Assembly (NCBI GenBank): GCA_902792085.1 | Contig: CADAYE010000008.1 | Coordinates: forward strand, 1-57,045 | DNA length: 57,045 nt | Origin: an uncultured bacterium | GTDB taxonomy: Bacteria; Cyanobacteriota; Vampirovibrionia; Gastranaerophilales; Gastranaerophilaceae | Direction: 5' to 3' | Shown: in pieces, positions 12,479-14,990 of the stretch | How positions within the stretch are numbered: position 1 is the stretch's first letter | Layout: every line of letters begins with the position of its first letter | Position numbers and translations under genes: made by a program | Notes under the pieces: generated by a model | The model's database searches: none | Seen by the model: the letters and a program-made list of their open reading frames with translations, nothing else | What the model was told of the DNA's origin: nothing

Positions 12479-12507
12479 TTGACAAAAAATAATTTTTCGT
12501 GTTTTAT
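12479..12507 (+). promoter_or_regulatory. Sigma-70-type promoter of the polycysteine leader
   Basis: A consensus -35 TTGACA (12479-12484), a 17-base spacer and TTTTAT (12502-12507). The predicted start is about 12514-12515, coinciding with the ATG at 12515. Confidence 0.5.
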
Positions 12508-12514
12508 GAGTGTT

Positions 12515-12571
12515 ATGAAATATTCATTTGTAGAAAATTTAATTTGTTGTTGCTGTAAGTCTTGTTGTTAA
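12515..12571 (+). CDS. Polycysteine leader peptide (candidate Cys-responsive attenuator)
   Basis: An 18-codon ORF reading MKYSFVENLICCCCKSCC then TAA, so six of the last seven codons but one are Cys (TGT/TGC). An in-frame ATG three codons earlier (12506) overlaps the proposed -10 box. There is no Shine-Dalgarno; the promoter would make the transcript leaderless. The Cys codons overlap the 5' arm of a hairpin (GTAAGT...ACTTAC, 12555-12579), and a terminator follows at 12627-12658. Ribosome stalling on Cys codons could therefore alter folding before the downstream gene. Polycysteine leaders acting this way are known in mycobacteria; function here is inference. The downstream gene has no evident link to sulfur. 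Confidence 0.5.
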   Translation: MKYSFVENLICCCCKSCC

Positions 12572-12626
12572 GAACTTACTTGTAATTTTTTGCGCAGATT
12601 AAACGGTTATCACATAAAAGTATAAA

Positions 12627-12658
12627 AAAGTTCTTAAATATGTTTTAAGAACTTTTTT
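12627..12658 (+). terminator. Intrinsic terminator between mini-ORF and membrane-protein gene
   Basis: AAAGTTCTTAAA, a short loop and TTTAAGAACTTT followed by more Ts. It lies 18 bases before the next ATG, so it either ends the thrC/leader transcript or works as an attenuator. Confidence 0.8.
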
Positions 12659-12675
12659 TAACGGGAGAAATACAA

Positions 12676-14367
12676 ATGAAAATAGAAAAGATTAACAATA
12701 CCCTGAGTTTTAATGCCTCAATGGGCGGTTTATCGAATGCTCTCTACACCCTGAGTAATAATGACATGCTGAACGCTTCTTTTGTTGACATTTTTGCAAT
12801 GGACACCCCTCGCACTGTAGTGGAAACAAAAAACAGAGGTAAACAAGCCGGAATTGAAATGGGTTTTAGAGAATACACAGGGACATTTATTGCCGAATTT
12901 TCAGCTGCGTTATTTGCAGTTTTTGCTTCAAAATTTATTTCTAAAAAACTTAAACCCGAAGTCAAAGTTAATTCAAGTTCTTGGATAACCAACAACGGTT
13001 TATATGTATTTTCAAAAATATATGAGAAGTCGAATAAATCACCAAAGGATTATGTAAAAAATATTTTTGATTCTATGTACGGTGTTTCCGGGAATAAAAC
13101 AGTTGAATTTTCAAAACTTAAAAAAGAAAAAAGTCTAAGTGTTATTGAAAAGTTAGCAAATCTTATCAGCAATAAGTCTATTAAAGATAAAAATCTCAAA
13201 AAAACATTATCAGAGATACAGGATGAAATAATCAGCCTTAGCGGTGCGGATAATAATATAACTATCAAATCCGGTTCAAGCCAAGTTTCATCAAATCTTA
13301 CCCATGCATTGAGAGATATTGTTGATTCCGGAAGAAATATTTTCTTTACTGAAACAAAACAAAGTTCAAATAACATCATATCAAAACTTAAATCAATGAA
13401 TAATTTGCGTATAGGAATTGCAATACCTTTATCAATGGGGCTTGCAATTACAAATCAATACCTCAACAGATATTTAACTAAACGCAGAACAGGAATTGAC
13501 AATTTTGTCGGCGAAAACGGCTATGAAAACAATGTCAAAAACAAAAACGAAAAAAATAATGAAAAAGGATTGTGGCTCAAAAAACTTATTTCTGCCGGAA
13601 TTTTTGTCTTGATGCTTTCCAAAGTTATGGGTGTAAAAAAGCCGATAGATTTAGTTAAAAAACTTGAATTTGACGGACCGGTCACAAGCGGAAATGCAAT
13701 TAAAACAATATACGGAACACTAATTTTAGGAAGAATATTTGCATCAAAAGACTCTACAGAATTGCGTGAAACTAATGTTCGTGACTATTTAGGATTTCTT
13801 AATTGGCTTGTATTAGGCGGGTTTGTTTCAAAAGGTGTTGCTCAAATACTTGACCCGAACCAAGAAAAATTGTTTAATATTACAAAGAAAGGCACAGGAA
13901 TAAAACATTGGCTTAGAGATATTTCTTTAAAATCTCAAAAAGAAATTTTGGCTGGTGGCGGTGACGTAAAAGCAAATTTAAGAAAATTGAATTTTGCTCA
14001 AATATCCGGGATTTTATATAGCGCATTAATGTTAGGAGTTCTGCTCCCGAAATTAAATATATGGATGACCAAAGGGCAGGCAAAAAAAGATATAAAAAAT
14101 GTTAAAAATGAAATCCCAAAAAAAAAGGGTAACTATATACAATGTTACAGTAAATATGTCTGTCATTGCGAGGAGGAAATGGCTTTCCGACGAAGCAATC
14201 CAGTTATTTCATCATTATCGACAAATCACATACAGGCTCACAAGGCTCATTATTATTTCGCCTGTTCGCTTTGTATCGCAATGACATGCTACTGTAAAAT
14301 AGTATATAATTACCTAAACAAATCAGCAAATATATCAATGAAAAAATTTGTTGAATGCACAAAATAA
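12676..14367 (+). CDS. Large membrane protein with N-terminal F-x-A motif, unknown function
   Basis: A 563-aa protein preceded by GGGAG eight bases before the ATG. Its N terminus (KINNTLSFNASMGG, F12) carries the N-x-x-F-x-[G/A] motif shared by several unrelated proteins here. Hydrophobic segments lie at about 77-95, 246-262, 309-325, 338-356, 374-392 and 439-458, with a polar helical region between the first two. Residues 496-537 (HCEEEMAFRRSNP...) are encoded by a 126-bp family B element, so the natural C terminus was probably near residue 495 and the last 68 residues are acquired. A -10-like TATAAT follows the element. No known family is recognised. Confidence 0.7.
   Translation: MKIEKINNTLSFNASMGGLSNALYTLSNNDMLNASFVDIFAMDTPRTVVETKNRGKQAGIEMGFREYTGTFIAEFSAALFAVFASKFISKKLKPEVKVNSSSWITNNGLYVFSKIYEKSNKSPKDYVKNIFDSMYGVSGNKTVEFSKLKKEKSLSVIEKLANLISNKSIKDKNLKKTLSEIQDEIISLSGADNNITIKSGSSQVSSNLTHALRDIVDSGRNIFFTETKQSSNNIISKLKSMNNLRIGIAIPLSMGLAITNQYLNRYLTKRRTGIDNFVGENGYENNVKNKNEKNNEKGLWLKKLISAGIFVLMLSKVMGVKKPIDLVKKLEFDGPVTSGNAIKTIYGTLILGRIFASKDSTELRETNVRDYLGFLNWLVLGGFVSKGVAQILDPNQEKLFNITKKGTGIKHWLRDISLKSQKEILAGGGDVKANLRKLNFAQISGILYSALMLGVLLPKLNIWMTKGQAKKDIKNVKNEIPKKKGNYIQCYSKYVCHCEEEMAFRRSNPVISSLSTNHIQAHKAHYYFACSLCIAMTCYCKIVYNYLNKSANISMKKFVECTK
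14161..14286. mobile_element. Family B MITE-like element with 11-bp terminal inverted repeats
   Basis: TGTCATTGCGA at 14161-14171 is the exact reverse complement of TCGCAATGACA at 14276-14286. The 126 bp (42 codons) carries no stop in the frame it interrupts. Its left end continues AGGAGGAAATGGC...GAAGCAATCC, matching the ends flanking the GIY-YIG gene at 52628. Confidence 0.75.
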
Positions 14368-14378
14368 AGGTATAGAGT

Positions 14379-14990
14379 ATGAAAAAGATTTTATGTTACG
14401 GAGATTCAAACACATTCGGATATAATCCTTGTGATGCATCAAGGTATGATGAGCATACAAGATGGACTGCCCTTTTGCAAAATATTTTGGGGGACAGATA
14501 TCAAATTATTGAAGAAGGTATGTGTGACAGAACAGGAATTGCCAATAATGACAACGGCTTTTTGTTTTCGGCACAAAAACATTTTCCAAAATTAATGCCA
14601 AAAACAAAGGAAGTTGATATTCTTGTTCTATGGATAGGGACAAATGATTTGCAATTCAAATATAATTTGTCTTTAGAGCAGATTGAAAAGGGACTTGAAA
14701 AACTTATTGTAATTGCGCAAAATTATGCTAAAAAAATCATTTTAATACCTTCTGTTGAACTTTCAGACAACATTTTAGACGGATATTTCCGTTGTCAGTT
14801 TGACAATGTAAGTGTTGCAAAATCAAAAGAAATGAGTAAAATTTATAAAAAACTCCGTCGGATTTATAATCTTGAATATTTTGACATTAACGAATTTGTA
14901 AAACCATCGGAAGTTGATGGTTTGCACTATGATGCAAACGGGCATAAAATTATCGCTCAAAAATTGTCTGAAGTAATTTTAAATATTTGA
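14379..14990 (+). CDS. SGNH/GDSL-family hydrolase
   Basis: A 203-aa cytoplasmic esterase/lipase-like hydrolase. Block I is LCYGDSNTFGYNP, with nucleophile Ser in GDSN; the oxyanion-loop Gly and Asn blocks are present (LWIGTNDLQ), and block V is DGLHYDANGHKII, supplying the catalytic Asp and His. The RWTALLQNILGDRYQIIEEG layout resembles arylesterase-type members that act on small acetyl esters, but the substrate cannot be read from sequence. There is no signal peptide. AAAGG lies about nine bases upstream of the ATG. It follows the membrane-protein gene by 11 bases, so the two are probably cotranscribed. Confidence 0.88.
   Translation: MKKILCYGDSNTFGYNPCDASRYDEHTRWTALLQNILGDRYQIIEEGMCDRTGIANNDNGFLFSAQKHFPKLMPKTKEVDILVLWIGTNDLQFKYNLSLEQIEKGLEKLIVIAQNYAKKIILIPSVELSDNILDGYFRCQFDNVSVAKSKEMSKIYKKLRRIYNLEYFDINEFVKPSEVDGLHYDANGHKIIAQKLSEVILNI

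Follow-up and report, generated by a model that had tools for sequence, protein, structure and literature searches.

A predicted cysteine-responsive transcription attenuator with a leaderless leader peptide in Gastranaerophilales, and its serine-run relatives

Short leader orfs with runs of Cys codons precede the cys operons of mycobacteria and P. acnes and the cbs gene of B. longum, without terminators (PMC1262725). The mycobacterial orfs, predicted in PMC1262725, are leaderless and, according to PMC9031893, which cites Canestrari et al. 2020, act as Cys-responsive attenuators; they have been called translational (PMC13236596). In 2010, leader-peptide attenuators were reported from Proteobacteria and Actinobacteria only, plus one his case in Firmicutes (PMC2965389). 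In B. subtilis under Ser starvation TCN codons are slow and AGY codons are not (PMC3862929). A first-pass annotation of the locus described here cited leaderless polycysteine leaders of mycobacteria as precedent and regarded such a leader as new in this lineage; a literature search with subscription papers mostly outside its reach found no paper on attenuation in Gastranaerophilales, and none on a Ser-run attenuator.

The window is a 57,045-nt stretch of DNA (contig CADAYE010000008.1, positions 1 to 57,045) from an uncultured member of the Gastranaerophilaceae. The promoter (TTGACA-17-TTTTAT), the ATG at 12515 and the polycysteine mini-orf of the first-pass annotation can all be read in it as described (Table 1). 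From promoter spacing, the transcript is predicted to start at ~12514–12515, at or next to this ATG. The orf, MKYSFVENLICCCCKSCC, has 18 codons, six of them Cys: the four consecutive control codons and two more at 12563–12568. A second in-frame ATG (12506), inside the −10 box, is found in the window only. In a simple consensus scan of the window neither the leader promoter nor the leader terminator reached its cut, because an A is missing from the second position of the −10 box and just two G-C pairs occur in the stem. The call from the window sequence alone is weak, and it was conservation that settled it.

Table 1 Features of the leader and downstream genes in the window.
Feature	Position	Strand	Remarks
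−35 box TTGACA	12479..12484	+	sequence; invariant in orthologous leaders
−10 box TTTTAT (weak)	12502..12507	+	17-nt spacer from −35; position conserved
Leader-peptide orf MKYSFVENLICCCCKSCC, predicted leaderless	12515..12571	+	ATG 12515, stop TAA 12569–12571
Control codons TGT TGT TGC TGT (four consecutive Cys)	12545..12556	+	synonymous TGT/TGC changes among relatives
Arm 1 GTAAGTCTT	12555..12563	+	in control-codon region; pairs with arm 2 (AAGAACTTAC)
Arm 2 TTAAGAACTT	12568..12577	+	partner of arm 1 or, as antiterminator, of arm 3
Arm 3 (terminator left arm)	12624..12638	+	12628–12637 pairs with arm 2
Arm 4 (terminator right arm, with U tract)	12644..12658	+	−13.2 kcal/mol; compensatory GC/AU changes among relatives
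Shine-Dalgarno GGGAG of regulated gene	12663..12667	+	sequence
Regulated gene P0001, alpha-helical membrane protein, 563 aa	12676..14367	+	no Pfam family, no solved relative
Dispersed repeat, 11-nt terminal inverted repeats	14161..14286	+	in frame, near 3′ end of P0001
SGNH/GDSL-type hydrolase	14379..14990	+	probable second gene of operon

The arms between 12555 and 12658 are predicted to form the 1:2/2:3/3:4 layout of a ribosome-mediated amino-acid attenuator. The first-pass annotation had Cys codons overlapping one arm of a GTAAGT/ACTTAC hairpin, and arm 1 does lie within the control-codon region (GTAAG(T)...ACTTAC; 12555–12563/12570–12579); the 1:2 pairs are preserved in 21 aligned leaders, mostly through invariance. 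The intrinsic terminator is likewise present (12624–12658), at corrected distances of 52 nt past the leader stop and 17 nt ahead of the ATG at 12676, rather than 56 and 18. An antiterminator pairing, absent from the earlier account, joins 12568–12577 (TTAAGAACTT) to a fully complementary segment in the terminator's left arm (12628–12637, AAGTTCTTAA). Calculated pairing energies are −7.9 (1:2), −10.4 (2:3; shuffle p 0.01) and −13.2 kcal/mol (3:4).

A DNA search of 46 genomes of the window's genus identified 11 orthologous leaders (73–95% identity), all retaining TTGACA, the Cys run, AAGAACTTAC and the terminator, and each followed by a P0001 gene. The gene upstream of the leader varies, with thrC there in the closest loci only. 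The ATG lies 35–36 nt from the start of the −35 box (39 in one leader, which has an earlier in-frame ATG), a geometry conserved in the window's clade and matching an AUG at +1, as the first-pass annotation proposed for the window. That annotation also took the Cys run and terminator in orthologous loci as the features to look for, and loss of the Cys codons from otherwise conserved DNA as evidence against it. Both features are conserved, and among 17 distinct leaders of the window's clade the four run codons vary almost solely between TGT and TGC, with few replacements, while the leader peptide outside the run drifts. Separately, one Cys leader (L177, G311:C33) has a stop codon just ahead of the Cys codons while the DNA further downstream is preserved, which may reflect a switch lost not long ago or a fault in the assembly.

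A wider survey of the rumen/gut Gastranaerophilales family drew on 288 genomes, mostly metagenome-assembled, from ~41 genera and on regions extracted from these genomes. Homologous leaders were found before 103 non-identical proteins, 51 with a Cys run and 52 with a Ser run, and all except L148, where none was found, have a terminator-like hairpin (102/103). When the best pairing between the terminator left arm and the sequence downstream of the control codons was compared with dinucleotide shuffles (p ≤ 0.05), 2:3 complementarity exceeded the shuffles in 87 of 100 leaders tested (37/48 Cys; 50/52 Ser), with differing arm sequences. The spacing from the end of the run to arm 2 is alike in Cys and Ser leaders (median 10 nt). 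Pairing of 1:2, although seen in the window's clade, was above shuffles in just 10/48 Cys and 0/52 Ser leaders, so that a protector hairpin across leaders is not generally supported. Rfam covariance models (T-box and known riboswitches) gave no match near a gathering score for the leader. Two further Cys-run leaders (L188 and L189) have the terminator directly after the stop, leaving no room for an antiterminator, and may represent a simplified form or decay; in the genome of L189 the full switch is instead located before lyase genes.

These data bear on an alternative in which control is translational, stalling on the Cys codons unmasking the Shine-Dalgarno sequence of the gene at 12676, the mode of action reported for the leaderless polycysteine orfs of mycobacteria. 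In Ser leaders, base pairing of the UCC run with a GGAG Shine-Dalgarno is also conceivable. However, the mycobacterial leaders have no terminators, whereas nearly all leaders here have the terminator-like hairpin and most an antiterminator partner, and the Shine-Dalgarno at 12663–12667 lies outside the hairpins, making translational control improbable.

The Ser-run leaders precede more distant relatives of P0001 (~40–45% identity) and share the promoter, short orf, arm 2 and terminator, with a run of Ser codons (e.g. MIKLFAKSNTSSSSKFKYSGLGSFSV, arms CGGGACTT/AAGTCCCG). In most of them the 5′ leader is longer and carries a Shine-Dalgarno sequence, so the leaderless start appears to be a trait of the window's clade. 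The run codons are TCC (150), TCA (73) and AGY (6), of 239. Paralogs that share ~30% identity, as a rule arranged in tandem, lack a run leader. A maximum-likelihood tree of the proteins places the Ser leaders in a single clade (SH-aLRT 98) that branches from within the Cys leaders, suggesting a single Cys-to-Ser switch of the leader as the simplest history. Two Cys leaders that also contain Ser codons (L190 and L191; proteins with 4.5% Ser) adjoin the Ser clade and are possible intermediates of this switch.

Target proteins are poor in the residue counted by their own leader. The proteins behind the 51 Cys leaders contain no Cys (28), one (19) or two (4), with a median of 7.2% Ser; those behind Ser leaders contain 1–6 Cys and 4.3% Ser. 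For comparison, run-less paralogs have 8.3% Ser, and among the window's genes ≥200 aa long the median content is 6.1% for Ser and 1.2% for Cys. Among Ser codons, the AGY share is 38% in Ser-leader genes vs 23–25% elsewhere, and TCC accounts for 3% in Ser-leader genes. Rank tests on target composition gave p ~1e-15 to 1e-17, values that do not count as independent evidence because the Cys-to-Ser switch happened once; despite the single switch, the pattern has held across deep branches. The Cys leaders L190 and L191, with their low-Ser proteins, depart from it.

The mini-orf might alternatively encode a small, Cys-rich protein with a role of its own in metal or redox binding, the terminator merely ending the mini-orf's transcript: the orf is conserved, and CCCCKSCC could bind metal. 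Yet Ser runs substitute for the Cys run in homologous leaders, the remaining peptide is unconserved and reading frames enter arm 2 differently among homologous leaders, and the mini-orf is always upstream of the same targets, whose composition tracks the leader; this reading is accordingly very improbable. Chance or ordinary intergenic conservation, with a Cys-holding short orf before the upstream gene's normal terminator, could draw on the failure of promoter and terminator to pass the consensus scan, but is scarcely credible given that the leader stays while the upstream gene differs between loci and that 103 leaders are spread across the family, with Cys codons varying synonymously.

A pattern search and a covariance model applied across the Gastranaerophilales family placed the attenuator ahead of P0001-family genes and of one new target only, an mccBA-like operon in three genomes (G069, G074 and G170), comprising a cystathionine gamma-lyase-like gene and a cystathionine beta-synthase/cysteine-synthase-like gene (assigned from best NCBIfam matches, below curated cut-offs). 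Thus, as in mycobacteria, genes of cysteine metabolism lie behind this type of leader, here in relatives. No P0001-family protein was found in G069 or G074, and no close homolog of the cystathionine gamma-lyase-like gene in the window's genome. Lyase operons in G147, G301, G186, G129 and G201 follow Cys-rich leaders that look unrelated and then a hairpin (identified by eye). In G204 (C134; L307) a lyase operon of unlike base composition lies behind a different Cys leader, MAGVQSCACCVITGRLDKMHN, and may be horizontally acquired or a contaminant. Within the genus, a pattern search for Cys- or Ser-run leaders ahead of further genes yielded, apart from this family, mainly coding-sequence-like matches, which were rejected, plus one His leader.

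The first-pass annotation called the downstream gene an unfamiliar membrane protein, which it does appear to be, and a candidate for sulfur or cysteine transport or stress. The AlphaFold model of P0001 is mostly helical (pLDDT 78.5, pTM 0.77) and six hydrophobic segments were read by eye from the sequence, and neither a fold search of PDB and viral models (no significant match) nor sequence searches of Pfam and PDB (no match) allowed function to be read from structure. Orthologs are ~502 aa. The window's protein has no Cys in residues 1–484, its eight Cys all lying behind residue 484, in the part inserted with the dispersed repeat and at its edges. This repeat, near the 3′ end of the gene, reads CHCEEEMAFRRSNPV and has many copies elsewhere in the genome. 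The SGNH hydrolase gene that follows is probably the second gene of the P0001 operon, judging from gene order: in many Cys-leader loci a P0001-family gene has an SGNH hydrolase behind it, and so does the mccBA-like operon that shares the attenuator. Placement of the attenuator before lyase/synthase-like genes, together with this hydrolase after both kinds of target, ties the switch to cysteine supply, and, judging from the shared regulon, the membrane protein may be a further route to cysteine.

The His-run leader (MTQNFLQKHHHHNHISLKEL), met by chance in the Ser pattern search, precedes a 426-aa protein in G001, relatives of which occur in 334 of 353 genomes, the window's genome among them. 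These proteins contain no His in 29 of 30 cases and one in the remaining case (window genes, 1.3%). His-run leaders (LQKHHHTHH) with an attenuator-like terminator were seen at L326 (window's genome, G000:C30:7157-8395), L308 and L253. Profile comparison of the His-leader family with the Cys/Ser family was at most suggestive, too weak for a claim of homology.

The leader in the window is very probably a ribosome-mediated transcription attenuator sensing charged cysteinyl-tRNA. It combines a run-bearing leader orf, predicted to be translated, with a terminator before the first gene and a 2:3 pairing that excludes the terminator; the candidate Cys attenuator of the first-pass annotation gains support from conservation of the Cys codons, a complete antiterminator, conserved leaderless geometry and Cys-biosynthesis-like targets in relatives. 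Transcription would start at or next to the leader AUG and translation would begin leaderless. With ample Cys, the ribosome would translate all six Cys codons, reach the stop (12569) and cover arm 2 or release it into 1:2 pairing, and the 3:4 terminator would form ahead of the gene at 12676. With Cys-tRNA short, the ribosome would stall on the Cys codons ~20 nt ahead of arm 2, which could then pair with arm 3, blocking the terminator so that P0001 and the SGNH hydrolase are made. As P0001 proper is without Cys, its synthesis could go on when Cys is scarce. The protein would probably serve to obtain Cys or a Cys source, an alternative to the reverse transsulfuration that appears to be under the same switch in relatives.

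In a broader picture, more likely than not, Gastranaerophilales possess a class of starvation-induced membrane proteins, every one under an attenuator that senses a single amino acid (Cys, Ser or His) and itself cleared of that amino acid; in one family the sensed residue would have changed once, from Cys to Ser, with recoding to match. The predicted attenuator would bring leader-peptide attenuation into Gastranaerophilales, in a Cys version that has a full terminator and antiterminator and, by prediction, a leaderless start. The replacement of Cys runs by Ser runs among homologous leaders amounts to a natural codon-swap experiment. Residue depletion in the targets shows independently which amino acid a given switch senses, and gives an entry point to proteins that fold and family searches could not name.

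Compared with mycobacterial polycysteine orfs, the leader in the window is likewise a short orf, predicted to be leaderless and bearing a run of Cys codons, of a type found before cysteine/sulfur genes (here in relatives), and would work in the same way; the mycobacterial leaders respond to Cys supply, a response predicted here from sequence. It differs in phylum, in its main target, a membrane protein of unassigned function, and in having an intrinsic terminator and antiterminator where the mycobacterial leaders are called translational and have no conserved terminator, and because of the terminator it is not filed among them. A control-codon peptide, mutually exclusive hairpins and an intrinsic terminator are shared with the trp, his, leu and thr leaders of Proteobacteria, from which it differs in its Cys or Ser control codons, the predicted leaderless start in the window's clade, a non-biosynthetic target in most genomes and a weak 1:2 hairpin, especially in Ser leaders. 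The Ser leaders, with TCC/TCA and almost no AGY, and their AGY-enriched targets recall B. subtilis sinR, in which TCN codons are sensitive to starvation (PMC3862929), although sinR acts within its own coding sequence, without leader or terminator. What is unusual about this attenuator is that it switched from Cys to Ser, that its targets are free of the sensed residue and that its start is predicted to be leaderless. The second of these resembles cognate bias (Fasani and Savageau 2014, PMC4209129), in which proteins made during starvation are poor in the scarce amino acid; that bias was described for biosynthetic enzymes, whereas here it concerns membrane proteins and tracks a residue switch within one family.
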